From Promethearchaeota archaeon Loki_b32 (GTDB lineage: Archaea; Asgardarchaeota; Lokiarchaeia; Sigyniarchaeales; SOKP01): a stretch of 46,315 bases of DNA. This document shows positions 11,667 through 37,703 of the stretch, one piece after another; position 1 is the first letter of the stretch, and every line of letters starts with the position of its first letter. A model generated the notes under the pieces. The model ran no database searches, was not told the DNA's origin, and worked only from the letters and a program-made list of their open reading frames with translations. The translations under genes and the position numbers were made by a program. The stretch lies in NCBI GenBank assembly GCA_005223125.1, contig NJBH01000006.1, positions 1-46,315 of the forward strand. The letters run 5' to 3'.

Positions 11667-11804
11667 TCAGTTTATAAAATAAGCCCTATTAATATCTATT
11701 TATATAATTTACTACGCCTAAAGATAAATTTTTTAAGTTTTATATAATTCATTCTTTAGAGGTAACAAAATATATCAATAAAAATAGAAAATTGCTGATT
11801 CCTT

Positions 11805-12077
11805 ATTCCTAAAAAAAGAAAAAGTGGTGGAAAGAGTGGTTCTAAAAAAGGGCATTATGCTAGAGTTCAATGCTCAAAATGCGGACGTATGGTTGCTAGA
11901 AGTAAAGCAAAAGCCGTGACAAGAAGAACATCTTTAGTTGATGGTAGAATGTATGCTGAACTGAAAAAGACTGGTACTATTATTCAAACTCCAAGCACGA
12001 AAAAATATTACTGTATTAGTTGTAGTATCCACTCAAGGAATATCGCCCAGCGTGCTAAATCAGAGAGGAGAACTTAG
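11805..12077 (+). CDS. rps26e: Ribosomal protein S26e, apparent AUU start
   Basis: S26e is a small-subunit protein near the mRNA exit, present in eukaryotes and some archaea including Asgard lineages. The reading frame gives PKKRKSGG ... GHYARVQCSKCGRMV and later YYCISCSIHSRN: the basic N-terminus and both zinc-binding C-x-x-C pairs of S26e. The only ATG in frame (11889) would remove the first zinc pair. An in-frame TGA at 11796 limits the start to 11799-11808, where ATT 11805 stands exactly where the universal Met of MPKKR belongs. No Shine-Dalgarno sequence is close; a TATA-like stretch (about 11769-11783) would fit a very short leader. The predicted protein is 90 aa. Confidence 0.9.
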   Translation: MPKKRKSGGKSGSKKGHYARVQCSKCGRMVARSKAKAVTRRTSLVDGRMYAELKKTGTIIQTPSTKKYYCISCSIHSRNIAQRAKSERRT

Positions 12078-12321
12078 ATTTAGTCACTTCGGCAATGTAT
12101 AATACTGCTACAGCACAACATATAAAGTCACCATGTAGTGAATCTTTTTTCTTTAAATATAAACAAGTTTATTCTATATTTAACGATGTTAATATAGTTG
12201 TTGTCAAACCTACAATTATAAATAAGAAAATAAAATAAGTGAAATAATATAATGGAACCAGAAATTTCTATAGAAAAGCGGATGTTAATGCATCTCTTAT
12301 GATGTGATGTTAACAAATTGG
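12078..12321. other. Intergenic stretch after S26e with a possible gene stub
   Basis: No complete gene is seen. A 16-codon frame at 12252-12302 reads MEPEISIEKRMLMHLL and stops; it resembles the first helix of an archaeal winged-helix regulator and could be the stub of a broken gene. It lies 20 bases before the left 42-bp repeat. The rest is AT-rich without recognisable signals. Confidence 0.25.
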
Positions 12322-12363
12322 AAATTATTTTAAATCCTTGAGTGCTGAATTTTTCTGAGGTTT
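12322..12363 (+). repeat. 42-bp direct repeat, left copy
   Basis: Matches 19864-19905 at 40 of 42 positions in the same orientation. The shared core is CCTTGAGTGCTGAATTTTTC. The two copies bracket the 999-aa and 1412-aa gene pair. It could be a target-site or att-type duplication, or a shared regulatory element. Confidence 0.85.
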
Positions 12364-12385
12364 ATTTTATTATACAATAAAGATG

Positions 12386-12541
12386 TTCAATCCTTTTTCG
12401 TGCGGATAATATTTGACAATTGCAAGAGTGATGTGAATGATGTGGATCAATCTTTATTTGCATGGATAATATAAAAGGTGATTCGAAAAATGTCTCAAAA
12501 GATTCATGTGGATCAATCCTTGTTCATGTGGATATTATATA
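12386..12541 (+). repeat. Three imperfect repeats with a CAATC ... GGATAATAT pattern
   Basis: Three related units lie about 60-66 bases apart: TTCAATCCTTTTTCGTGCGG (from 12386), GGATCAATCTTTATTTGCAT (from 12443) and GGATCAATCCTTGTTCATGT (from 12510). Each is followed by GATAATAT or GATATTATAT. They fill the space between the left 42-bp repeat and the 3' end of the 999-aa gene. Function unknown; possibly termination or processing signals. Confidence 0.6.
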
Positions 12542-12554
12542 AATAAATATTATT

Positions 12555-15554
12555 TTAATTTGACTTAATATTTCGAAGAAATTCAAGTGCACATTCTCTA
12601 TAATACTTTCGATGTAGAGATAAGCCAATTTTTACATTCTCTTCATTGATTTTAAAACCACATGATTTGTTATTTATATTTTGTAATTGCTTTCTCTCTG
12701 TCTCTGGTAATTTCCAAGCCATATTCACCTTTAATTTTTCATCTATAACCTTTAGAGAGATCGATTTCATGATATTATCGGCATATTTTCTCTGTGCAAA
12801 GTAATAGGCAAATTCATTTTTTAGATTTTTATCTCGTTCTGTCATGTATTTCTCCCAATCCTCTTCCCACCATCTCATGCGGATAGCTGGGTATGTACGG
12901 GGTTTTATATTGAGTTTGTTAGATAAAATCTTGTTTTTTTCTACCCACGCAGGCGCTTTTAAAAATAAACCTATACTTTTATAATGTTCATAGTTTTCAT
13001 TTCGCAATTCATTCATATGTTCATAGTGAAAGCTTATTTTGACTATATTATGAATAATTTTATTTAGAACCAATAAACAATCAAAAAAATGAGTTAGCTG
13101 TTTTAACATATGTTTAACTTCTGACGAGTAATATCCAAAGATTATGTACTGAAGGAATTTTTCGAACTCATAAAAAAAGTCATTAATATAATTCTTAGCT
13201 TCACAACCAAAATCTTCTGGGGAAAACAAATCAATTCTTTCCTCCAGGAGAATTCTTATTTCGTTTAATCTTTCAATGAAGTTTTTAGGTGGTGTGAATT
13301 CTTTATCTTTTAATATGACTTTCAAGTCTTCAAACAAACTAATATCTGAAATATCTTTTATTACAGAAAGAAGATCCATTATAGACTCATTTTGATGCCC
13401 TAGAATTTTCATTATATCGTTATATTTTTTAATTTTTGAAGAATCTTCAAAGTCTTGACCATCTTGAAAACATAGAAAGATTTCTTTCTTAATAGGCTCG
13501 GTTAGTCTCGTATTTATCTTTTGTATAATATCAAGGTCTAACTTTTCATAAGCCATGAATAGGAACATAATTATATTATCGTGTACATTTGTCCATGGAT
13601 TTTCCGGAATATAGGTTTTAACAAGTCTATTTATTAGGTCATATTCAGGACTTTCAAATATTTGGCAAATTTGATCTTTATCATATATTTTAAAAAATTC
13701 TTTTAGGAACTCATAACTCCAATCTCCATATTCATAGTATTTATCGTTTAAAATGACGTTTTTTATGAAGGGAGCAATCATATCACTTCCCATTTCTCTC
13801 ATTATTTTAAATATATAATCTAGATAATCACGTTTTTGAGTGAATTTAAAAATAAGATCTCCACCTTCCGGACCCATTTTACTTAGAAAGTACTCGAGAT
13901 AAGTGGGTGGATATTCTTCGTTGAAAATCTTGTTAATAATGTTTAGAAAATTATGTCCTGAATTTTTTGATATCTTAATTACATCACTTTTATTTAATAG
14001 TTTGACAATTTCTGTATTAAACAGGTTTACAATAGCTTCATAGGAATTAGCTTGAAACGATGCTAATAAACATTCTATTATTAAAATCTTTAAGTTTTCT
14101 TTATTATCCTTTACAATATTAGTCGTAAGTTTACCAATTTCGTCCCTATACTCAAAATTATACTCATATTTATTATATATAATAACGTTAAGTAGTATTT
14201 TTAAACCAAGTTCTCCTAATTTTTCAATATTTTGCTTACTAGGAACGTAATTTCCAGAACTTACAATCTGTGAAAATTCTATAAGATCTAATTGTTCATA
14301 CTTTTTTTTCAAAGATTTCATCAAAAATTCGGGTGATTCTTTGTATATGATAAAAGTGGTCATGATCCAGCATTTTTCTTCACTATTCAAATCATCATAA
14401 TGTTTTGAAAGGAATTCACGTAAGATTCTTGAATTATTTTCGAGGAGAATCCCAAAAAGATAGAAACGAATCCGTTCCTGACGATTTTTATAAGCTAAAA
14501 TAGTTCTTTCTAGAATTTTTTTAATCTCCTCTGAAACGATACTTAGGAAAGGTATATCATATTTTTCAAGTAAATCTATGGTATTTTCGTTTAATTTAAA
14601 GTCTTTTTTATCTATTCCAGAAGCGTGTGAAGTATTATCAAGTATAATGAATGAAATTTTTCTCCAATCTAAATTCTTTAGGTTTTTCTGTATCTTTTCG
14701 AATATTAATTGATCAATTTTGTTTTGATCAAATAATAAATATGAAATCAATGCAACTTTTTGATCTTTGTTTAAAATGGAATACATTCTCTGAAAAAAAT
14801 TTACTATACTTTTAGAATTGCGAAAAATTAATATTTTGCTTACTTTTTGAAAGCTCTTGAATTTTTCTCTTAAATGATGATTCCATTCGATATACCAATC
14901 AAGTTCTTTTTTCAGTAATTTGAAAAGGGCATCATCCAACTTTTTCAAATCAAAGTCTTGAAATTCTTCTTCTGAAAAGGCATCAAATAAATCTTCTCGA
15001 AGAATGTCTCTAAAAATCTCAAAATTTTCTGATTTTAAATAATAATTAATGTCATTTTTTAGCACTAGTTTGGCAAAATCTTCATCAAATTTAATTAATC
15101 TCTTAAAATTGTATGGATATATTATACCCCCTGATAAAATATTAAGGTTCCTCTTATCAAATAGCTTACCTAAATCTTCTTCACTAAACAGATTCAAATA
15201 GCGATTCCCTAAAATAAAATTAACCACATCTGATTCACCACTTAAAAACCCCTTCAATACATCTCTTTTAAAAACTTTTTTAGCAATCGGTTCTCTTGAA
15301 TCAGATAATCTTTCCAATAATTGAAACGCAATATCATAAGGTAGGAGTGTTTTATCATATTCACTCTCTACCCATTTTTGTATAGATGAGCATCGGTTAT
15401 TGAATTCTTCCTCAGTATTGTCCTCATTACGTTCATTAATTGGGATTGAAGAATGCCAATGTACCAAAGTGTGTGTTTCCATATGGATTTCTGTAATAGA
15501 CATAACACCCTCTTGTTTTAGAGTAATATACTTATTAACCTTGAATTCTTTCAT
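12555..15554 (-). CDS. Giant alpha-helical (HEAT-like) protein, paralogue of the upstream LRR protein
   Basis: A 999-aa protein of unknown function. Its first ~100 residues match the N-terminal module of the gene upstream: KEFKVNKYITLK with EG at the start, then CSSIQKWVESEYDKTLL and PIAKKVFKRDVLK. The remainder is predicted to be nearly all helix, in repeated acidic/basic segments like HEAT or ARM scaffolds. I see no P-loop, nuclease motif, membrane helix or leucine-rich repeats. The start ATG 15554 has AGAGGATGG upstream. Only 15 bases separate it from the 1412-aa gene's stop, so the two are almost certainly one operon. The C-terminal region (about 840-999) is not shared with the neighbour. 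Confidence 0.75.
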   Translation of the reverse strand: MKEFKVNKYITLKQEGVMSITEIHMETHTLVHWHSSIPINERNEDNTEEEFNNRCSSIQKWVESEYDKTLLPYDIAFQLLERLSDSREPIAKKVFKRDVLKGFLSGESDVVNFILGNRYLNLFSEEDLGKLFDKRNLNILSGGIIYPYNFKRLIKFDEDFAKLVLKNDINYYLKSENFEIFRDILREDLFDAFSEEEFQDFDLKKLDDALFKLLKKELDWYIEWNHHLREKFKSFQKVSKILIFRNSKSIVNFFQRMYSILNKDQKVALISYLLFDQNKIDQLIFEKIQKNLKNLDWRKISFIILDNTSHASGIDKKDFKLNENTIDLLEKYDIPFLSIVSEEIKKILERTILAYKNRQERIRFYLFGILLENNSRILREFLSKHYDDLNSEEKCWIMTTFIIYKESPEFLMKSLKKKYEQLDLIEFSQIVSSGNYVPSKQNIEKLGELGLKILLNVIIYNKYEYNFEYRDEIGKLTTNIVKDNKENLKILIIECLLASFQANSYEAIVNLFNTEIVKLLNKSDVIKISKNSGHNFLNIINKIFNEEYPPTYLEYFLSKMGPEGGDLIFKFTQKRDYLDYIFKIMREMGSDMIAPFIKNVILNDKYYEYGDWSYEFLKEFFKIYDKDQICQIFESPEYDLINRLVKTYIPENPWTNVHDNIIMFLFMAYEKLDLDIIQKINTRLTEPIKKEIFLCFQDGQDFEDSSKIKKYNDIMKILGHQNESIMDLLSVIKDISDISLFEDLKVILKDKEFTPPKNFIERLNEIRILLEERIDLFSPEDFGCEAKNYINDFFYEFEKFLQYIIFGYYSSEVKHMLKQLTHFFDCLLVLNKIIHNIVKISFHYEHMNELRNENYEHYKSIGLFLKAPAWVEKNKILSNKLNIKPRTYPAIRMRWWEEDWEKYMTERDKNLKNEFAYYFAQRKYADNIMKSISLKVIDEKLKVNMAWKLPETERKQLQNINNKSCGFKINEENVKIGLSLHRKYYRECALEFLRNIKSN

Positions 15555-15569
15555 TAAGAACCATCCTCT

Positions 15570-18500
15570 TTAAAAAATAAATGTATCATCTGGATCGAAG
15601 TCAAATTCCTTAATTTCAAAATTAAATTTATATTCCAGTAATTTTTCTTTAGGAATATTATTTTTACCTAATACTAAGACTTTTAATTCTTTTAGATGCT
15701 CCAATCCTTTTATTTCAGATATTTCATTGCTGTATAAGTTGAGATATTTCAATTTTTTAAGACTATTTAAGTTTTCAATTTCCGAAATTTTATTGATACT
15801 TATATCGAGAAATTCTAAATTAATGAGATTGTCTAAACCATTGATTTTAGTTATTTTATTTCTGTTTAACTTTAACTTTTTTAAATTTTTTAGAGAATCT
15901 AACCCTTTTATTTCAATTAAAGTTTGATTATAGTTGATATTTAGAATTTCTAAGTTGTTAAGTTTCTCTAATCCTTTTATTTCAGAAATCCTATTCTGAG
16001 CTAAATCGAGTATTTTCAGCTTTTGTTGATTTTCGAGATTTTTAATTTCTCGAATGTTGTTTTTACGAAGAAAAATGGCTTCAAGATCAGTCAAGCTTTC
16101 TAATCTTTTTATTTCGTCAAAAGATCCAATGCTAAAATTAGTCAAATCTAATGCTTTATTCCAAATATAAAATTTTTTTCCATATACGAGTACAGATTCA
16201 GTATTTTCTTTAGGTATCAATTTTTGGCGACAATATTCCACAAAATTACGAGGATTTTTAGCCAAGTAAGGCCAACTTTTTGTCTCAACACTTCCCAATT
16301 CCTCAAAAAGTTGGTGATCTATTGGATTACCTCCAATACTTAAGCGATTTAATTTTGGAAGATCTTCTAAACCCTTTATCTCTGAAATATTGTTATTACA
16401 GAGTTCTAACATAGTAATATTATACAGACTCTTCAGTCCTTTAATCTCCTTAATCTTATTAAATCCAAGATCTAAGCGGAATAACTTTTTTAGGTTTTCT
16501 AACCCCTTAATTTCGGTAATTTGATTACTCGCAAGATCCAAATCTCGCAAGTTTGCAAGTTCAGATAATTGTCTGGGGATTTCTTTTAGGTTTAGATTTT
16601 TAAAATTTATGGTTGCAAGTGATTTTAGTCCACTAAACCAATTTGGGAATTCTTTTATCTTTGAAGATGATAAATCCAGTTCCACCAGATTTTTCAGGTT
16701 TTTCAACGATTTGGGTAGAGATTCGATTCTTGTGTTTGAAAGCTTTAAATACCTTAACTTTTTTAATCGTCCAAACGAATCTGGTAAAGTTTCAAGCTTA
16801 CACCCGAATGCATTAAAGGATTCAAGCGATTTTAAATCCCCTATTGATTCTGGTAAGGTTTTAATTGTATTTTTATGGTTATTTGATATATCTAAAGATT
16901 TTAAAGACTCCAACCCTCCAATGCTTTCGGGAAGAGATTCTAAGAGATTTTCAAACATTCTTATTGACTGAAGATTTTTAAGATTCCCAATGGATTCGGG
17001 GAGGTATTTGATGGGATTCCCGTTCAAATCTAATTTTTTCAGAGATTTTAATTCCCCGATGAACTCGGGGAGTGTAGTAAAATTATTGTAACTTAAATTC
17101 AGTTCTTCGAGCGAAGTTAACTTTGCAAAGGATGTGGGCAGATTTGACAAGGGTGAGTAACATATGTTTAATCTTTTTAAACTTGTGAGTTCCCCGATAG
17201 TTTTAGGTAATTGCTGCAAGTTGACTCCGTTTTCGTCCCAAATTGATAACTCCTCTACTTTTCCATTAGCAATAATAAAACCTGATCCCTGGGGTTCCTC
17301 ATCATTGTTATGTATAAATAAATCACTGTCAATTTCATTCTCAATTTCCATAAGAACCTCTTTTCCAGAAGAAATTAATTTCCAAAAATCTTCTCGATTC
17401 AAATCATTAACATAATCTCTAATGTGATAGCTAAACTTATCCTCATCATAACTGTGTCTTTCCATGAACCAAAATATACTACTAACAAAATCTCTTGGAA
17501 AAAAATCTCGAATATCAATCAGGATTTTGTCAATAATTTCATCATATTCCCACTGAAGCTTTTTGTATATTTGATAGTCAAGTGATAGTAGCAGTTCATT
17601 AATGCCCTTTGGAGCGATGCAAAGAAATTTTACTGCTAGAATGTCAAATCCAAAATCCCAATTATCTTTATCCTGGAGTTCTAACAATTGCTCTAAAATC
17701 AGATTCAAGATATTATTAGGTCGTCTTTTCAATTCAGTGGTCATCATCGTAGTGTTAGAAACTAACAAGGCCCTCAATTCGAGTAGAAGTGGTTCATTTA
17801 AGAAACTTTGATTAAATTCAGATTCTGTATCTTGAATGATGGTCGTAAGGAAAAAATCTAGTATGTCAAGAGCGTAAGAATTCTTATTTACTGCATAGAG
17901 CTTGAAGATTTTCAAATTAAACCGCCTATCGCTTCGCATAACGTTCAAACACTCCTCTTCTAAAGTAGTTTCGATATGGGTGAGAAATTCTTCAATATCA
18001 TCAATCCTTATATATTTGAATAAATATTGAAAATTGATTAAATCCCTAAATAGGTCTATATCATCAGTTTTTAATCGTTCCAGTAAAGCCTTCCTAATAT
18101 CTTGTATCTCACTAAAATCTTCGTCTTTTATGAAGAAACTAATGCGGTTTAATAAATTAACCAGTGGTCTTCTAGAAGAATAGCTTTTTGTGAAATACTT
18201 GAAATTGTTGTTCTTTAGCATGTTAATTAGCAAGAGAACCTTGATGTTATTAAAAAATCTATCCTCAAATATACCAAATCTTGGGATATTAATCAAACCC
18301 TTAACAAGTTCTTCTTGATTCATGATATTTTTGAGGATCAAGGAGGTCTCTTCATCATCAAGGACACTTTTTATCACTTTAAAAATAACAATACCTTTAG
18401 GATCTTTTTTTCTCACCAGATCAACTATGATTTTAACGAGCTGTTCCCTTTTATCCTCTGACATGTTTTTAATAAATTCTTCGAACTGTGGAAGTTTTTT

Positions 18501-19808
18501 TATCATAAGAATCATGTTTTTCGGAGATATATCTCCATGAATAAACGTTTGGAGGAGATTCACAATGACATTCTTATTTTGTAAGGAATCTATTGCTTGC
18601 TTGTTTAAATACCTCGTCAAATCATTAAGCTTAAATAATTCTAGGAGGTTATGCTCATCCTTACTACAAATAAGTTCGATGATTTTAGCAGTGATCTCGC
18701 GATCATTTACAAGTTCAAGGGTTCGTGAGGAGTATATGAAATCAGATTCTTTTTCATTAAGTAAAAAACGAGTTATTATCTCTTCTTTGAGTAATTTATT
18801 TGCAACATCATCACCTTTTTTAATGAGGTATCTCAAAAATGTGGAAAACATAATGGTGCGAATATCACTTGTTTCTAGAAAAGCTTTAATAGTTTCTTTT
18901 AAGGTATTACTGTTTTTACAAAAGAGATGTTCCACTCCAGATTCCTCTAGGTATTGAATGACTAATCGTCCTAACCAATATTCAAATGCTATTGGAAATC
19001 TTGGAAATTTTTTAACAAATTCACGAACCTTACCATCCTTACGTTTATTCACGTAGGCTCGGAGCATCGCATTATGCATTCCTGGATCAAGCTGTATATC
19101 CCTGTTAGAACGAAAATAAATACCTTCTGGCCTAAAAACTCCCGTATACAGCATTATTGCCCCAGATGTCTCCTCATTTAAATCTTCAAAGACTTGTTTC
19201 CAGTTTTCATCTTGAAAAGAATCCATTAGTCGAAACAGGTTTATAAACCTAAAAATCGAATCATCCCCCGCTTCGATTCTCTTTAGTGTTTGATCCAATA
19301 TCCGAGGATAAGGTGCAAGAAACATGTTTTCACGGATGTTTTTATCTAGATATTCTAGATATCCATTTTGGAAAAGATATGAAACGACTGGTAAATACCA
19401 AGATTTCAAACGTTTCATTATTTCTTCTTTGAGGGCGCGTTTAGCAATTGGATCTCCAATGAGAGACAGTTTTTTAAGCAAGGGAAAAGCTAAATTCGAA
19501 TGGAGTAACCGAGTATCGTATTCATGTTCCACCCATACTTGCATATTCGAACAATGCCCCCAAAATTCTGTCTCTGGTGGGATTCTTGATGCAACCATAT
19601 CCATTCGCTCGAGAGAGCGATCTAATTTTTCAGCAGCTTCATCGATAGATTCAATCTCATCAAAAGTGCTAATTTTATCAACAGGAATATTCAGCAATAA
19701 AAACTTACATTGATTAAACAATTGTTCTTTAACATAAATGTTGGTCTTTTCCCCTTCCAGCTTTAACGTGATGTACTCATTAACCTTGAATTCTTTCTGT
19801 GTAGGCAA
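15570..19808 (-). CDS. Giant HEAT-like plus leucine-rich-repeat protein
   Basis: A 1412-aa protein with three parts. Residues 1-~200 form a module beginning KEFKVNEYITLKLEG and containing HCSNMQVWVEHEYDTRLLH, shared with the downstream 999-aa protein. About 200-850 is helical and HEAT-like. About 860-1165 holds bacterial-type leucine-rich repeats (LPESIGNLKNLQSI kind) shifting to SDS22-like repeats (ITEIKGLENLKKL kind). After a ~60-residue interruption (with NPRNFVEYCRQKL), more SDS22-like repeats fill about 1226-1395. No enzymatic motif is visible, so it is probably a recognition or scaffold protein. TATA-like TTTATAAGTA lies just upstream on this strand, next to the 42-bp repeat. By eye it is slightly less AT-rich than its neighbours. 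Confidence 0.85.
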   Translation of the reverse strand: MPTQKEFKVNEYITLKLEGEKTNIYVKEQLFNQCKFLLLNIPVDKISTFDEIESIDEAAEKLDRSLERMDMVASRIPPETEFWGHCSNMQVWVEHEYDTRLLHSNLAFPLLKKLSLIGDPIAKRALKEEIMKRLKSWYLPVVSYLFQNGYLEYLDKNIRENMFLAPYPRILDQTLKRIEAGDDSIFRFINLFRLMDSFQDENWKQVFEDLNEETSGAIMLYTGVFRPEGIYFRSNRDIQLDPGMHNAMLRAYVNKRKDGKVREFVKKFPRFPIAFEYWLGRLVIQYLEESGVEHLFCKNSNTLKETIKAFLETSDIRTIMFSTFLRYLIKKGDDVANKLLKEEIITRFLLNEKESDFIYSSRTLELVNDREITAKIIELICSKDEHNLLELFKLNDLTRYLNKQAIDSLQNKNVIVNLLQTFIHGDISPKNMILMIKKLPQFEEFIKNMSEDKREQLVKIIVDLVRKKDPKGIVIFKVIKSVLDDEETSLILKNIMNQEELVKGLINIPRFGIFEDRFFNNIKVLLLINMLKNNNFKYFTKSYSSRRPLVNLLNRISFFIKDEDFSEIQDIRKALLERLKTDDIDLFRDLINFQYLFKYIRIDDIEEFLTHIETTLEEECLNVMRSDRRFNLKIFKLYAVNKNSYALDILDFFLTTIIQDTESEFNQSFLNEPLLLELRALLVSNTTMMTTELKRRPNNILNLILEQLLELQDKDNWDFGFDILAVKFLCIAPKGINELLLSLDYQIYKKLQWEYDEIIDKILIDIRDFFPRDFVSSIFWFMERHSYDEDKFSYHIRDYVNDLNREDFWKLISSGKEVLMEIENEIDSDLFIHNNDEEPQGSGFIIANGKVEELSIWDENGVNLQQLPKTIGELTSLKRLNICYSPLSNLPTSFAKLTSLEELNLSYNNFTTLPEFIGELKSLKKLDLNGNPIKYLPESIGNLKNLQSIRMFENLLESLPESIGGLESLKSLDISNNHKNTIKTLPESIGDLKSLESFNAFGCKLETLPDSFGRLKKLRYLKLSNTRIESLPKSLKNLKNLVELDLSSSKIKEFPNWFSGLKSLATINFKNLNLKEIPRQLSELANLRDLDLASNQITEIKGLENLKKLFRLDLGFNKIKEIKGLKSLYNITMLELCNNNISEIKGLEDLPKLNRLSIGGNPIDHQLFEELGSVETKSWPYLAKNPRNFVEYCRQKLIPKENTESVLVYGKKFYIWNKALDLTNFSIGSFDEIKRLESLTDLEAIFLRKNNIREIKNLENQQKLKILDLAQNRISEIKGLEKLNNLEILNINYNQTLIEIKGLDSLKNLKKLKLNRNKITKINGLDNLINLEFLDISINKISEIENLNSLKKLKYLNLYSNEISEIKGLEHLKELKVLVLGKNNIPKEKLLEYKFNFEIKEFDFDPDDTFIF

Positions 19809-19863
19809 TTTTATGGTTTTTTCATATTTTTGTCTTATAATTGGATAAGATACTTATAAATAA

Positions 19864-19905
19864 AAATTATTTTAATTCCTTGAGTGCTGAATTTTTCTGA
19901 TGTTT
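19864..19905 (+). repeat. 42-bp direct repeat, right copy
   Basis: Second copy of the repeat at 12322-12363 (two mismatches). It begins 56 bases upstream of the start codon of the 1412-aa gene, next to its TATA-like element, so it might also be part of that promoter. Confidence 0.85.
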
Positions 19906-20013
19906 TGATGATTTTCGCTAGACTTTTTCTTTAAATAGTTTCAAACACACAATAATAAAAACCGTAATTTTCAATAAAATATTTGAGGAGAAGATAAAGG
20001 CCTCCCTTAACCA

Positions 20014-20136
20014 TGGCTCCTGTCAGACACCCTGGATTTTTGTCTTTTGATCGTGTAGTAGGTTACACGATGTTTTCGCCCTCCTCCCCCTATTTGAGTT
20101 GATGACCTTCTGTTTAGGTCGAGCTGGCAGGAGTCA
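20014..20136. ncRNA. Candidate multibranched structured RNA, 123 nt
   Basis: A 13-bp stem, unbroken except for two G-U pairs, joins TGGCTCCTGTCAG (20014-20026) and CTGGCAGGAGTCA (20124-20136). Inside it are AGACA/TGTCT (about 20025-20045), the perfect 8-bp hairpin ATCGTGTA-GTAGGT-TACACGAT (20050-20071) and GACCT-TCTGTTT-AGGTC (20104-20120). A C-rich single-stranded stretch lies between (20078-20090). The block is clearly richer in G+C than its surroundings and is followed by TTTT. Strand cannot be decided from pairing alone. It does not match any RNA family I can recall; no tRNA, 5S or box H/ACA signature was found. Confidence 0.5.
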
Positions 20137-20205
20137 CTTTTAAAATAATCATAATCGACAACCCTCATATACTTTATATTTTTGTAATTATATTTTGAGA
20201 GTGTA

Positions 20206-20322
20206 ATGTATGAAAAGAGCGAAGCAGTAAAACAAGTGAGAGGGGAGCTAATTCAACAAACTCTGGATAAAATTTATGAGACTCTGGATTTTAGTGATCT
20301 TAGAACAAACACATATGGATGA
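20206..20322 (+). CDS. Micro-ORF, 38 aa, hypothetical
   Basis: This short frame starts MYEKSEAVKQVRGELIQQTL and ends in SDLRTNTYG; its composition is protein-like and forms an amphipathic helix. CTTTATATTT at about 20171-20180 is a suitable TATA box, and GAGAGTG precedes the ATG. It overlaps the next micro-ORF by eight bases (ATGGATGA). The pair could instead be one ~70-aa gene split by a frameshift. I do not recognise either product. Confidence 0.4.
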   Translation: MYEKSEAVKQVRGELIQQTLDKIYETLDFSDLRTNTYG

Positions 20323-20419
20323 TAAAAGAGTAACTGTAGATAATCCTCAAAAGGAATTAATTGAAGAAGCTGAAAAATATATTAATGAAGCAGAATTGAA
20401 GTTAAAGAATAAAAGATAA
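20315..20419 (+). CDS. Micro-ORF, 34 aa, hypothetical, overlapping the previous one
   Basis: It reads MDDKRVTVDNPQKELIEEAE and continues as a highly charged helix ending KNKR. Its start lies inside the end of the preceding micro-ORF, so coupling or a frameshift between them is likely. It ends about 105 bases before the 154-aa gene on the same strand. Function unknown; a small antitoxin-like or RNA-binding role is only a guess. Confidence 0.4.
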   Translation: MDDKRVTVDNPQKELIEEAEKYINEAELKLKNKR

Positions 20420-20523
20420 TCATACTCCAGAGTTTTTCCGGATTTCATCTTCTTTAATTCTAAAAATCTAGGATTTTTTATTTATAAATATAGAACAAGA
20501 TATACAACTAAAACATCTTTAGG

Positions 20524-20988
20524 TTGAAAAATGTGAAAATCATAAAGGAAGATAGAGATCAAGGTACAGTGACTTCCATAGAATTCTTTAAAGAACATTA
20601 TAAAGAATTAGGAGAGATTAGATATCTCATTCTTTATTATGCTGAGAGAGAATGGAGCATAAACCATAACTTACAGCATCAGTACACGATCTTTATTGGG
20701 GAGAATGCTCAATTATGGTTATTTGGTATAGCATGGGGGTATTATGGACAAGAACCTTCTGGTTTGCATGAGATAATAGGTATGATTGATCCTGAGATTA
20801 CTTATAAGCAAATTGTAGATTTAGAGTGGATGGCGGAAGAACCGATAATGTTTGAAATTGGTGAAAGCAAATTTATTTTGAAACATATAACTGAAAATGT
20901 TAAGGAAATACTTCGCAATGGAAATAGATTTTTACCATGGGATATACGAAATGTAAGCCAACGAGATAAGAGTGAAAGAAGAACTTAA
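20524..20988 (+). CDS. Hypothetical 154-aa protein with an S26e-like C-terminal tail
   Basis: I do not recognise the family. The protein is soluble, mixed alpha/beta and rich in aromatic residues (YTIFIGENAQLWLFGIAWGY near residues 55-74). Its last 13 residues, RNVSQRDKSERRT, align with the end of ribosomal protein S26e in the same window (RNIAQRAKSERRT), 10 of 13 identical. The codons differ at many synonymous positions, so this is not a recent copy. The start is TTG 20524 (GTG 20533 is possible). It lies downstream of the structured RNA and micro-ORFs on the same strand, at the far side of the island from S26e. Confidence 0.65.
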   Translation: MKNVKIIKEDRDQGTVTSIEFFKEHYKELGEIRYLILYYAEREWSINHNLQHQYTIFIGENAQLWLFGIAWGYYGQEPSGLHEIIGMIDPEITYKQIVDLEWMAEEPIMFEIGESKFILKHITENVKEILRNGNRFLPWDIRNVSQRDKSERRT

Positions 20989-21041
20989 AGTCTACTCTTT
21001 ATATGTTATTACTTTCTTATCATATTTTTATAAATGAAGAA

Positions 21042-23027
21042 TCATAGATTTAATTGTTTAAAGAAAGCTGGAAGATTATAAATTATTTTGACCATATCTT
21101 TTGTTGTAGTCTCTATAATAGCCCTAATTAAGAAATCGTTCTTTAAATCTTCTTCAGGTTCATAAATTTTCACCTTAGCTGTTGATTTAATTTTAAGAGT
21201 ATAATTTTCAGCAATTCCGGTAACATTTTCACTAGTTTTCAATTTAATTCCCAATAAACCTAATTCATAATGGGAAACAATAAAAAGAATTTGTTCTGGG
21301 ATTTTTTTGGATTTTTCGAAATACACAACTTCGAAGTAATCATCTTGAAGTTCCTTTGGAAGTTTTGAGAAGGGAATTGTTTTTTTTTTTCCTGTAATAT
21401 ACGGAAATGGGGTATAAAACAAGAGATTAAAACTTGAGATTTTTTTAATTTGTTCATTATATTTTTCAACATCCTTAATTGAGTAAGCTTTATCTAATAA
21501 AACATCTAATTTATCGACCATATCTTCCGCTGAATATCCGGCCAAAACCGTTGCAATATAAGATCTTTTAAGCTTTTCTATTAAGGTTTCACTTTTGTAT
21601 GTTAATTTATAGTCAATTGAGATTTCCAATGCTTGATTGTAAAGATTTACAGCAATTTGAGAATGTCCTAATGCCAAGAAATAATCCCCTAATTCACTAA
21701 ATACTATTATCGCATCGAGAAAATTTTCTTCGAAATCAATTTTTGAGATTTCATCCATGATATTCATTGCTGTATTCTTATCTTCACCTTGAATATAGAT
21801 TGCTATAGCTTTACCGATTAAAGATTTAAGACGTAACTTATCATCTCCATAAATATCGGCTAATTCTTCAGTAAAATTATATTGTTTAATAGCATTTTCA
21901 TAAAGTCCATGAAATAGATATATTAAGGCTTTGATATAATTTAGAGTTAAACAAGTCTTATGATTATGGATTATGATGGAAAACAATGCAGCTCTTTCAA
22001 GTGAATCTATAGCTGCGTTAATCCGGCCAAGCGAAACTAATAAATACGCCCGCAAAAATTCCATCTTGCTAATTTCAGAACATATCAACTGCTCCACAAT
22101 CTCATAATCCTTGATATTTGTTAACTGCCCCGATGCGACTTGAAGTAACGATACTAAAAAACCATTACCTGTTTTTAAATATTTTACAGCATCCTTTGTT
22201 TCACTTTTTATTATCGCTTCTCGAGCCCGGATTACATATTCCCTTGAAATTTTTAAATTTTCAAGAAATTTTACTATTCTAATTATTTGATCCTCTTCAC
22301 TTTGAGGGAGATCCTGATTAGATATATACTTCTCAGCAATGTTAATTTCATCTGCATATTTTGTAGCGCCGATCTCAAATTTAACACCAGTATCGGGATT
22401 TTCTAACTCAACATCTTGAGATAATATCGATGTTTCTGTAACTGCAATCGCTTTTTCAATCAACCAGGTTATTTTTTGTTCAGCGGGATATATTTTAGAG
22501 CGTTCAATCATATATGATAATGTATAATTTAAACTTCTTTTCCAAAGTTCTTTAAAATATTTTCTCATCTGAGATTTAGCAATTGTTCTCTGTATTTTCA
22601 ACAAAAAACTTGAAAGTGATAATATATTAATTTTTCCCTTGTAGAGTAAATTTGTATTCTTTGCTAATTTAAAATCATCGGTTACTAGGTGAACAGGCAA
22701 AGCACTATTTTCATCCATTAATTTCTTTCCAATGCAGACAAGTGTTAAATCAGGATCTTGAGCAGGAAATCTAATATTAAATTGATTTAAATCGTCTTTA
22801 ATAGCATCTATTTCTCTTGGGAGTACTTTTTCTACATTAATTATGTTTTTTAGCTTGTCTTTATATGTATGTGGTGCTTTTATTTCATCAAACACGACTT
22901 GAGAAATATAATATTCATATCCTAAATCTTCAGCGACAATTTCTAAATTTTTTAGAACATTACGGGCTTTAATTTGGAGCAGACAAATGAAATAATTAGC
23001 ATCAAATATGATTCGCTGTTTAGGCAT
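21042..23027 (-). CDS. PIN-domain protein with TPR-like helical repeats
   Basis: A 661-aa protein. Residues 1-~150 form a PIN nuclease domain: IFDANYF (D9), VVFDEIKAP (D47/E48), DPDLTLVCIG (D91/D93) and LVTDDFKLA (D117/D118) supply the usual acidic metal-binding cluster. PIN domains cut RNA, often rRNA or tRNA. About 260-540 consists of TPR-like helix pairs (AYLLVSLGRINAAIDSLERA, NLYNQALEI) and the last ~120 residues are beta-rich. There is no antitoxin-like partner beside it, so a housekeeping RNA-processing or quality-control role is more likely than a toxin. Its ATG start follows AT-rich sequence with no Shine-Dalgarno. Confidence 0.75.
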   Translation of the reverse strand: MPKQRIIFDANYFICLLQIKARNVLKNLEIVAEDLGYEYYISQVVFDEIKAPHTYKDKLKNIINVEKVLPREIDAIKDDLNQFNIRFPAQDPDLTLVCIGKKLMDENSALPVHLVTDDFKLAKNTNLLYKGKINILSLSSFLLKIQRTIAKSQMRKYFKELWKRSLNYTLSYMIERSKIYPAEQKITWLIEKAIAVTETSILSQDVELENPDTGVKFEIGATKYADEINIAEKYISNQDLPQSEEDQIIRIVKFLENLKISREYVIRAREAIIKSETKDAVKYLKTGNGFLVSLLQVASGQLTNIKDYEIVEQLICSEISKMEFLRAYLLVSLGRINAAIDSLERAALFSIIIHNHKTCLTLNYIKALIYLFHGLYENAIKQYNFTEELADIYGDDKLRLKSLIGKAIAIYIQGEDKNTAMNIMDEISKIDFEENFLDAIIVFSELGDYFLALGHSQIAVNLYNQALEISIDYKLTYKSETLIEKLKRSYIATVLAGYSAEDMVDKLDVLLDKAYSIKDVEKYNEQIKKISSFNLLFYTPFPYITGKKKTIPFSKLPKELQDDYFEVVYFEKSKKIPEQILFIVSHYELGLLGIKLKTSENVTGIAENYTLKIKSTAKVKIYEPEEDLKNDFLIRAIIETTTKDMVKIIYNLPAFFKQLNL

Positions 23028-33589: not shown

Positions 33590-35242
33590 TTAGTTTATTT
33601 TAAATCCTTTAAATAATTTCAAAAGATACATTATTTCTTCAGAGTTTTCGATTAGTCTTCTTAAATTGTAAGGGAAAATGGCCAATCCTACTTCCTTCCC
33701 ATTGGAAACTTGTTCGATCATTATTTTTATAATTTCTTTAAATTTTCTAACAGTATCACCTTCAATTTCTATTTCAGAGATAATTTCCCATGCTTTATCC
33801 AATTTTCCATTTAATAAACATGAGATAGAGGCAAGAACATAACTCTGAACTATATGCGAATAACCAATTTTTTTGAGGTTAGCTGCCCTATAATAATAGC
33901 GATATAAATTGTTTACCATTTCTCTTAAGAGGTAATCTTTGGCGTTATCTAACTGTTCATAAAATTTAATACTTTCTAAAATAAGAGTAGCTGCAGTAAA
34001 AAATTGTTTGTTTTTTAAATCTTCTTCTGCAATTTTATTTAATCCTCTAATAATTTGATTGAAAATACCAAATCTATTAAATTCTAATTCTCCTTCAATC
34101 GCAATATCATAAGCATTTAAATAACTCTCTGTAGACTCATTTATACTTCCGATCTTCCAAAAATTATCTCCTGCTTTTACAAAATGTTTGTAACTCATTT
34201 CAAAATTATCCATTTCTTTAAAAACATTAGCCCCATCAAAAAAATTTATAGCTGCTTGGTTAAAATCTTCTATCTTCTCAGAAAAATTACCAGCTAGCAA
34301 AAAACAAGAAGCACATTCAATTAAATTATTTTTTATATCAAGATAACATAATCCAGCTCCTCGGTAATATCGAGAGATTTTATGAAAATTTTCTTGGTTC
34401 TTTTCTAATGTTTCTGCTAGATCTATATATGCACCAGCTTCTTTTTTAGAAAAATTAGTATACTGGTCTTTTTCATCTAAAATTTTGTAGAGATTTTTTA
34501 ATATCTGATAAATCTGAGCTAATGTTAGATTATCGCTTGTTTCTTCATATTTAGTCGCTAAATTTGAGAAAAATTCTACTCCCTCCAATATAATATCTTG
34601 TGATTTGTTGTAATCGTCGATTTCCTCATAACAGGATCCAATTTGTTGGTATGAATAGGATAGCATATCATAAAAGTAATGAATTTTTGAAATTTCGATA
34701 ACTTTCTCGTAAAATTTTATAGCCTTCTTGAAATTAGATAATTTTAGAAATAAATCCGCGATATTTTGATAATTTTGAGCTAGTTTTCTAGCTTCATTAA
34801 ACTCTTTTAGAAGTTCACTCTCTTGTTTTAAAAATTTTATACTATTTAAGATATTTTTTTTCTCAGATTCTGAATTAATAATTTTTTCGCTGTAAATATC
34901 TGCAATTCGTAAATACAATTCAGCGATTTCATGTAATTTGGCTTGAAGTTTATAATCAACAATTAATTTTTTATATAATTCAATAATCTGGTTATACAGT
35001 TCGAGAGCCTCCGAGAAATCAATGTTTTCTACAATCTCTGCAACCGAGAAAAGAAATTCTCCAGCTTCAAAATATTCTCCAGATTGAGCAATATCATTAG
35101 CAAAATTAATAGAACACGAAAGCATCTCTTTTATTTTTTTATTTTTTTCTATTGGATCTGTTAAGCTTTGAATTTTGGATTCATAATTACGTATCTTATC
35201 TAAAAATTCAGTGTAATCTATGAATTCTTCTTCTTCAATAAT
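33590..35242 (-). CDS. TPR/SNAP-like helical repeat protein, apparent AUU start
   Basis: A protein of about 550 aa built of helix pairs of TPR or alpha-SNAP character (KAIKFYEKVIEISK, SYSYQQIGSCYEEIDDY, QAAINFFDGANVFKEM). Asgard genomes hold many such proteins, some likened to SNAP; function here is unknown. The first conventional start, ATG 35125, is internal: 39 more in-frame codons upstream read as normal protein (EEEEFIDYTEFLDKIRNYES). The only initiator there is ATT at 35242 (or 35239), five (or eight) bases after the strong Shine-Dalgarno GAGGAGATC (35256-35248). The in-frame TGA before it closes the frame. Confidence 0.75.
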   Translation of the reverse strand: MIEEEEFIDYTEFLDKIRNYESKIQSLTDPIEKNKKIKEMLSCSINFANDIAQSGEYFEAGEFLFSVAEIVENIDFSEALELYNQIIELYKKLIVDYKLQAKLHEIAELYLRIADIYSEKIINSESEKKNILNSIKFLKQESELLKEFNEARKLAQNYQNIADLFLKLSNFKKAIKFYEKVIEISKIHYFYDMLSYSYQQIGSCYEEIDDYNKSQDIILEGVEFFSNLATKYEETSDNLTLAQIYQILKNLYKILDEKDQYTNFSKKEAGAYIDLAETLEKNQENFHKISRYYRGAGLCYLDIKNNLIECASCFLLAGNFSEKIEDFNQAAINFFDGANVFKEMDNFEMSYKHFVKAGDNFWKIGSINESTESYLNAYDIAIEGELEFNRFGIFNQIIRGLNKIAEEDLKNKQFFTAATLILESIKFYEQLDNAKDYLLREMVNNLYRYYYRAANLKKIGYSHIVQSYVLASISCLLNGKLDKAWEIISEIEIEGDTVRKFKEIIKIMIEQVSNGKEVGLAIFPYNLRRLIENSEEIMYLLKLFKGFKIN

Positions 35243-36722: not shown

Positions 36723-37703
36723 TTACTTTAATGTAATTCGTAATAGATCTTTAGCTATTATAGTGTTAGGGAATATTTCTTTAGCTTCTTCTAGTAACAT
36801 TAAGGCATTTTCTTGATATCGTGCTGAAATATGAGTAAGAATCAATTGTTTTGCATTCATTTTTTTTGCATCTGTTGCTGCATCAACCGATGTAGAATGT
36901 TTCTTCTCCTCAGCAATTTCTGCAAGTGCTTTTGCGAACGTTGCCTCATGTATTAAAATATCTGAATTTATTCCTAAATTTATTAATGAATCACTAGGTT
37001 TTAAATCTCCTGAGTAGGTAATTTTTCTTCCTGGTTGTTTGGCACCAACAATTCCTTCCTTAACAGGATCAATAGTTGTTCCATTGAAATCAATGATTTG
37101 TCCTTCTTGTAGTTTTTTCCACAGATGACCTTCAGGAATACATAATTCTCTAGCACGGTCAGGATTGAATTTACCATATCGTGATTTTTCAATGAAAGCA
37201 TATGCGAAGGTGATGACAGAATGTTCTACTAGAGCATATTTTATTGAAAAGTATTTCGTATCTAACACTATGTTATTATTCATCTGGATTGTCTTCTTTG
37301 GTGTTTCAGAATCTAATCCTTCATACTCAATTAATTCTTGCGATTGATGATCGATTTCTATGATTTTAATATGATATTTAGCTTTCAATCCAAGAATTTT
37401 CTTATGGAGAAATAAATAAAGAAAGAGATTTCGGGGTCCAAAAATCATCATTGGTGCGGTTCTATCGTTTAAACTTAAACGAAATAAAAATCCAGGGAGG
37501 CCAATAATATGGTCTCCATGAAAATGAGATATAAATATTTTCATTGGTTTATTAAATTTTAATCCTGCTTCAGCAAATTTACGTTGGAAATCTTCTCCAC
37601 AATCAAAAAGGAAAATTTGATTTCTATATCTCAAAGCAATACTAGAGAGATTACGTTCTTTAATAGGAGTCGCTGCTGCGCTTCCTAATATAATTAGTTC
37701 CAT
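36723..37703 (-). CDS. rnz: Ribonuclease Z (tRNA 3' endonuclease)
   Basis: RNase Z trims the 3' trailer of precursor tRNA. The 326-aa protein is the short form. Metallo-beta-lactamase motif II is SHFHGDHIIGLPG (H60, H62, D64, H65), with MELIILGSAAATP at the N-terminus, LVEHSV, YSGDLKPS (metal Asp), HEATF and KKHSTSVDAA (phosphate and AxT-type region), and LTHISARY with the last metal His. All active-site residues are present. It lies 19 bases downstream of a coiled-coil gene on the same strand and is likely cotranscribed with it. Confidence 0.92.
   Translation of the reverse strand: MELIILGSAAATPIKERNLSSIALRYRNQIFLFDCGEDFQRKFAEAGLKFNKPMKIFISHFHGDHIIGLPGFLFRLSLNDRTAPMMIFGPRNLFLYLFLHKKILGLKAKYHIKIIEIDHQSQELIEYEGLDSETPKKTIQMNNNIVLDTKYFSIKYALVEHSVITFAYAFIEKSRYGKFNPDRARELCIPEGHLWKKLQEGQIIDFNGTTIDPVKEGIVGAKQPGRKITYSGDLKPSDSLINLGINSDILIHEATFAKALAEIAEEKKHSTSVDAATDAKKMNAKQLILTHISARYQENALMLLEEAKEIFPNTIIAKDLLRITLK

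Follow-up and report, generated by a model that had tools for sequence, protein, structure and literature searches.

Islands in the 3′ ends of protein genes restore the gene end on one side and displace the native end to the other. Among Asgard archaea, accessory elements that insert beside tRNA or rRNA genes include HeimM2, a Heimdallarchaeal 8-kb element encoding a leucine-rich-repeat (LRR) protein and a homing endonuclease, and the aloposons, with tandem giant genes whose giants span 3000–6000 aa (Wu et al., 2022; PMC8813620). The block described here resembles both as an Asgard accessory element, with an LRR protein as in HeimM2 and tandem giants as in the aloposons. Unlike them, it sits within the ribosomal protein gene rps26e; its genes are a different set and include no recombinase, the giants being compared by description. 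With the 3′-end gene islands it shares the restored and displaced gene ends, but here there is neither an integrase nor an att-like core.

The window (the whole stretch of DNA that was analysed, 46,315 nucleotides) is the first 46.3 kb of the 161.5-kb contig C44. The island is described from one genome and its junction pair from one draft assembly (4.13 Mb, 71 contigs; completeness 95.5%, contamination 4.6%); the counts given below for families rest on incomplete assemblies. In nine same-genus genomes (G001, G002, G003, G005, G006, G007, G008, G009 and G010) the genes for a CDP-alcohol transferase, S26e and a TPR protein are adjacent, and the block is absent. Because the S26e and TPR genes adjoin in all nine, the block is a real strain-specific genomic island, and its gain as a unit, proposed in a sequence-only reading of this DNA, is borne out. 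That reading had placed the ends of the unit at a pair of 42-bp direct repeats. Clean presence/absence junctions were not found there: the true junctions fall beyond the repeats, by ~0.25 kb on the left and ~1.05 kb on the right, and one of them is inside rps26e.

Table 1. Features of the island and its junctions (window positions; strand left empty where none is assigned)
Feature	Position	Strand	Description
rps26e, left copy	11805–12077	+	90 codons, ATT start; Pfam S26e 27.3 bits
Island	12016–20952		~8.9 kb; from empty-site synteny and alignments
Orphan promoter box	12322–12363	−	copy of the 42-bp box without a TATA box or a gene behind it
CRISPR remnant	12385–12538		repeats 12385–12412, 12445–12472 and 12511–12538, plus two spacers
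P1	12555–15554	−	999 aa; eroded N-module and long body, predicted helical
P2	15570–19808	−	1412 aa, TTG start; N-module ~1–165, uncharacterised body, LRR ~850–1400
P2 promoter	19818–19905	−	upstream box (19864–19905), TATA-like and initiator-like elements
Structured RNA copy	20012–20141	+	three helices, T-rich 3′ end; model R1 128.7 bits
Truncated 83-aa-ORF remnant	20206–20322	+	38 codons; the full ORF follows the RNA in other genomes
154-aa ORF	20524–20988	+	accessory family, homologues in G007, G005 and G010; C-terminal codons are the rps26e tail
Displaced native rps26e tail	20953–20988	+	VSQRDKSERRT-stop; matches G001 at 35/36 nt

The left edge of the island is not sharp (within ~11935–12077), and the right edge is at 20952/20953. 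The 5′ part of the left rps26e copy resembles G001; the gene is divergent from ~11935 onwards, most clearly in its last ~20 codons, and identity of the left flank to G001, ~85% overall and 98% at 11740–11839, falls to 78% at the end of the S26e gene. The final 36 nt of this copy match G001 at 21 positions and G008 at 27. On the right, a block like that of G001, the nearest relative, starts at 20953, and the 154-aa ORF takes its final 12 codons from the native rps26e tail, which agrees with the left tail at 22 of 36 nt. With a native tail at the right and a foreign-looking tail at the left, the native rps26e was therefore interrupted, and the incoming sequence restored an end to it; the displaced tail and the empty sites together show insertion into the rps26e 3′ end. 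The segment between the left copy and the first 42-bp repeat (12078–12321) gave short, AT-rich, chance-level matches in 57 relatives, with no homologous copy at the locus. The right flank is ~97% identical to G001 over 21.0–23.0 kb and ~80% beyond; the tract at 20953–23000, at ~97% amid ~80–85%, looks like a recent exchange by recombination among species of this genus. The apparent start codon of rps26e is ATT (11805–11807), at the same place in nine relatives and ATA in G005; in the window and in G001, an in-frame stop lies three codons upstream, so that no standard start codon is available.

Scans of P1, P2 and the 154-aa ORF against Pfam, NCBIfam and PADLOC found no integrase, transposase or recombinase, and any string shared by the true junction zones is shorter than 10 nt, hence no attachment core. 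In the absence of both, the simplest account is a recombination anchored in rps26e whose right-hand join was illegitimate. An accessory block of 8.9 kb was inserted in the rps26e 3′ end in this lineage: at the left, rps26e homology would have anchored the recombination, the donor 3′ end keeping the gene intact, and at the right an illegitimate join would have fallen inside the 154-aa gene. The block itself is a patchwork that combines the P2-P1 operon, driven by a promoter type that other repeat-protein genes also have, with the orphan box, the dead remnant of a CRISPR array, an RNA copy and the 154-aa gene. Taken as a whole, that is, insertion into rps26e, a patchwork block and a two-subunit adaptor or receptor formed by P1 and P2, we consider this proposal reasonably probable.

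One rival is an integrase-driven element that targeted the rps26e 3′ end, carried a replacement end, and has since decayed or was mobilised in trans. A restored gene at the left and a displaced native tail at the right are the classical outcome of 3′-end integration, and Asgard elements at tRNA and rRNA sites have been described (PMC8813620), but an origin of this kind is unlikely given the missing recombinase gene, the lack of a shared string between the junction zones, the poor agreement of the two tails, a right junction that cuts into the 154-aa ORF, and nine relatives free of any insertion at S26e.

The 42-bp direct repeats themselves, identical at 40 of 42 positions, are real. Their 24-bp core occurs at only three sites in the 4.13-Mb genome when up to 3 mismatches are allowed, compared with none for a reversed control pattern. 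The right copy lies directly upstream of the TATA-like element of P2, and the 87-bp P2 promoter region is 86% identical to sequence upstream of a radical SAM gene on contig C71 and 80% identical to sequence upstream of a TPR gene on contig C24. Similar promoters stand ahead of WD40, TPR, LRR and N-module genes in G005, G002, G015, G008 and G014, some of the promoters in the genus having the core part alone in common with that of P2. With the right copy abutting a TATA-like element and similar regions ahead of unrelated genes, the repeats are thus a promoter element, namely its upstream half. As ends of the island they are ruled out by the empty sites and by the promoter being common to unrelated genes, an outcome that the sequence-only reading had itself named as refuting its view. 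The orphan left copy may be the leftover of a lost gene. On C71, the promoter-sharing locus (L074, 1472–9743) comprises in one orientation the radical SAM gene, a pair of small ORFs, of which one starts with the motif FVTNSSSDS, and a gene for a 1942-aa relative of P1; the set is a possible peptide-maturation operon.

These data bear on a second alternative, in which the repeats are the footprint of a cassette recombining between them, or of a promoter-anchored exchange. Same-orientation copies do bracket P2-P1, and recombination between identical promoters could add an operon and leave an orphan copy behind. Against this, the empty site lacks both repeats and further sequence beyond them, and the same box recurs within promoters of unrelated genes. 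We regard a repeat-mediated origin as decidedly improbable, and movement as a repeat-bounded cassette, as first envisaged, finds no support: the boundaries lie outside the repeats, an integrase or transposase is lacking and the junction zones have no shared string. Least probable of these origins is a misassembly, in which fragments from two strains would have been joined at rps26e and the TPR gene: although the assembly is a contaminated draft, the flanks differ in identity to G001 (left ~85%, right ~97%) and the multi-copy RNA repeat lies at contig ends in some genomes, both sides are syntenic in gene order, the right tract fades to ~80% past 23.0 kb as a recombination tract would, and the GC3 shift tracks the block and not one flank.

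Beside the orphan box lie three smaller repeats, which the sequence-only reading had noticed correctly without recognising what they are. They match 24, 22 and 23 of the 28 bases of the CRISPR repeat at G007:C16 (L270), and nowhere else in the window does a match reach 20/28. The copies are degenerate, with periods of 60 and 66 nt, and therefore represent a decayed CRISPR remnant. The L270 array has 15 repeats, mostly 60–61 nt apart, and adjoins cas6b and a Csx1/Csm6-type gene. The remnant is like the type III-associated arrays of Lokiarchaeota (L270, L273, L274) in its repeat, TTTCAATCCTTGTTCGCGTGGATAATAT, and in its ~60-nt period; unlike L270, it has just three degenerate repeats and no cas genes. 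Its spacers found no exact 26-mer match in IMG/VR, and spacers of the related arrays, compared with the island and the virus-like contigs, gave short AT-rich matches alone, taken as chance.

To the right of the P2 promoter, a segment of ~130 nt belongs, on covariation, to a structured RNA family not described before. Two-sided compensatory change affects 15 of the 22 pairs when 39 copies are aligned, compared with a shuffled mean of 6.2, and paired cells amount to 96.6%, falling to 33–48% once the pairing is slid. The family is marked by an invariant TGGATTTTTGTCTTTTG and a CCCTCCTCCCCC stretch, and has no match in Rfam at the gathering score, the sole match in the window being a distant tRNA. 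It is found in almost every tested genome of the taxonomic family, often in several copies (L224–L263), some at contig ends. About half of the copies lie ~180–385 nt upstream of a Tes-like radical SAM gene, which scores 434.8 bits against the NCBIfam profile for the tetraether lipid synthase Tes, just under its cut-off of 450; the remainder include copies ahead of an 83-aa ORF. The RNA may be a stand-alone small RNA or a leader element.

Relatives of the 154-aa ORF occupy other genomic places in G007, G005 and G010. At G007:C53 (L180, 9726–12915) the relative follows an AriB-like gene and an AriA-like AAA ATPase, and at G005:C45 it lies near type I restriction genes, which suggests, by gene neighbourhood, a defence context for the 154-aa gene and the island. 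The G007 AriA-like ATPase (732 aa) carries an N-terminal Ras-family GTPase domain (Ras 3e-29, AAA_21 5e-18), and the two genes form a PARIS-like pair. The G010 relative (C64, L182, 4710–5180) is inserted at another point of the neighbourhood that is syntenic with the window, flanked by orthologues of the window genes at 33590–35125 and 36723–37703.

The core of the block is formed by two adjacent giant genes with related N-terminal modules, as had been proposed. Both are on the minus strand and are separated by 15 bp, so that a single operon is plausible. The modules of P1 and P2 share ~34% identity over 149 aa (E ~1e-14), related but distant, and ~30 module residues are missing from P1. P1 is 36% identical to the first part of the 1942-aa C71 protein, which has two N-modules. 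Given the low identity between the modules, the loss in P1 and the C71 alignment, P1 and P2 are unlikely, on sequence comparison, to be recent duplicates of each other; in an N-module tree they do not group, the tree being almost without resolution and P1 a long branch. P2 carries 13 LRR_4 stretches (170 bits compared with a cut-off of 27) and is alone in passing the LRR profile cut-off. The stretches lie at roughly 860–1400, on both sides of a non-LRR gap near 1165–1215 (Pfam), in keeping with the LRR region first proposed, and are preceded by a long stretch without a family match. P1 has no matches in Pfam, NCBIfam or PADLOC, and no Pfam HEAT profile match; the model of its structure is all-helical with a pLDDT of 46, too uncertain for a fold search, and the HEAT-like label given to it earlier, whose sole basis is this all-helical prediction, is held with low confidence. 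A PDB sequence search with P1 and with the N-terminal 854 residues of P2 returned nothing, single-sequence patterns from P2 found no relative in the genome contigs, PADLOC profiles matched none of P1, P2 and the 154-aa ORF, and in neither P1 nor P2 did Pfam, NCBIfam and PADLOC scans reveal an effector domain or an NTPase. As for the suspected shift in base composition, GC3 is 0.296 in P2, 0.241 in P1 and 0.271 in the 154-aa ORF, versus 0.196 (sd 0.032) in flanking genes, an excess of 1.4 to 3.1 sd, with a codon usage that is unremarkable in other respects; across ORFs in the rest of the genome GC3 averages 0.221 (sd 0.046).

A search for the N-module across the genome finds it at ~20 places (at least 16 by profile). 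Its fusion partners include LRR, TPR, WD40, Ras/Roc GTPase, CBM96 and DUF1963 domains, and most paralogues stand singly amid housekeeping-like genes. With a 25-sequence profile, the module was detected in 70 of the 227 genomes of the phylum searched, comprising 62 of the 65 from the same family and 8 spread over three further families of its order, while genomes from other orders gave no match; by this profile search, it is a paralogue family restricted to one order of Lokiarchaeia. An AlphaFold2 model places four strands before helices (pLDDT 79.9), a fold search of PDB with the model returned nothing at E < 1, and the sequence has no match in Pfam or PDB. One further giant (1282 aa, G015:C39, L172, 2862–6710) combines the N-module with LRRs and a C-terminal DUF1963, with a related promoter upstream. 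The module is also encoded on three IMG/VR contigs of 93–111 kb (L198, L199 and L200). The proteins concerned are 739, 303 and 435 aa long, and in the 435-aa one CxxC (zinc-finger-like) motifs precede the module. These contigs have dense small ORFs; one of them encodes a viral-type DNA polymerase, and the others phage-family ATPases or a PAPS reductase. A capsid gene was looked for and not found, and their viral nature therefore rests mainly on IMG/VR.

Adaptor and receptor families usually pair one conserved module with many ligand-binding repeat domains. By analogy, the conserved N-module might dock to one partner shared by the family, leaving the variable region, the LRRs of P2 or the helical body of P1, to bind the target, and the P1-P2 pair would be a two-subunit adaptor or receptor with no enzymatic activity of its own. 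Such a non-enzymatic role is the likeliest single function, though tentatively held. The LRR part is compatible with a sensor, as suggested earlier. A narrower possibility is that P1-P2 is an anti-virus sensor in which the LRR part recognises a viral protein. The neighbouring CRISPR remnant, the PARIS-like and restriction genes near relatives of the 154-aa gene, and the N-module on three virus-like contigs speak for this, but an effector domain is absent, PADLOC gives no match, most paralogues are single among housekeeping-looking genes, and the viral copies could be chance pickups of host genes; we think an antiviral role unlikely. The remaining probability lies with functions outside both readings.

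More speculatively, and with little confidence, the N-module (KEFKVN ... HCSNLQ-W) could serve for docking in an adaptor system peculiar to Lokiarchaeia, one that works like a variable receptor repertoire, with shuffling of LRR, TPR, WD40 and Ras-type domains, a partly shared promoter type, viral copying and island-driven diversification. In a works-like comparison only, F-box, BTB and NLR-like receptors are similar in joining a conserved adaptor-like module to varied LRR, TPR and WD40 domains; unlike them, the N-module has no Pfam, PDB or fold match, and P1 and P2 have no NTPase.

The island provides a well-resolved case of Asgard gene gain, in which a ribosomal-protein gene received a different end and its displaced tail remains as evidence. 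New here are a structured RNA family often found upstream of a Tes-like gene, from the tetraether-lipid synthesis family, and an undescribed adaptor-like module, which has multiplied in a single order and is joined to repeat and GTPase domains of eukaryote-like kinds. If the adaptor reading of P1 and P2 is true, archaea related to eukaryotes would have in it a protein-interaction system that is concrete and open to testing.
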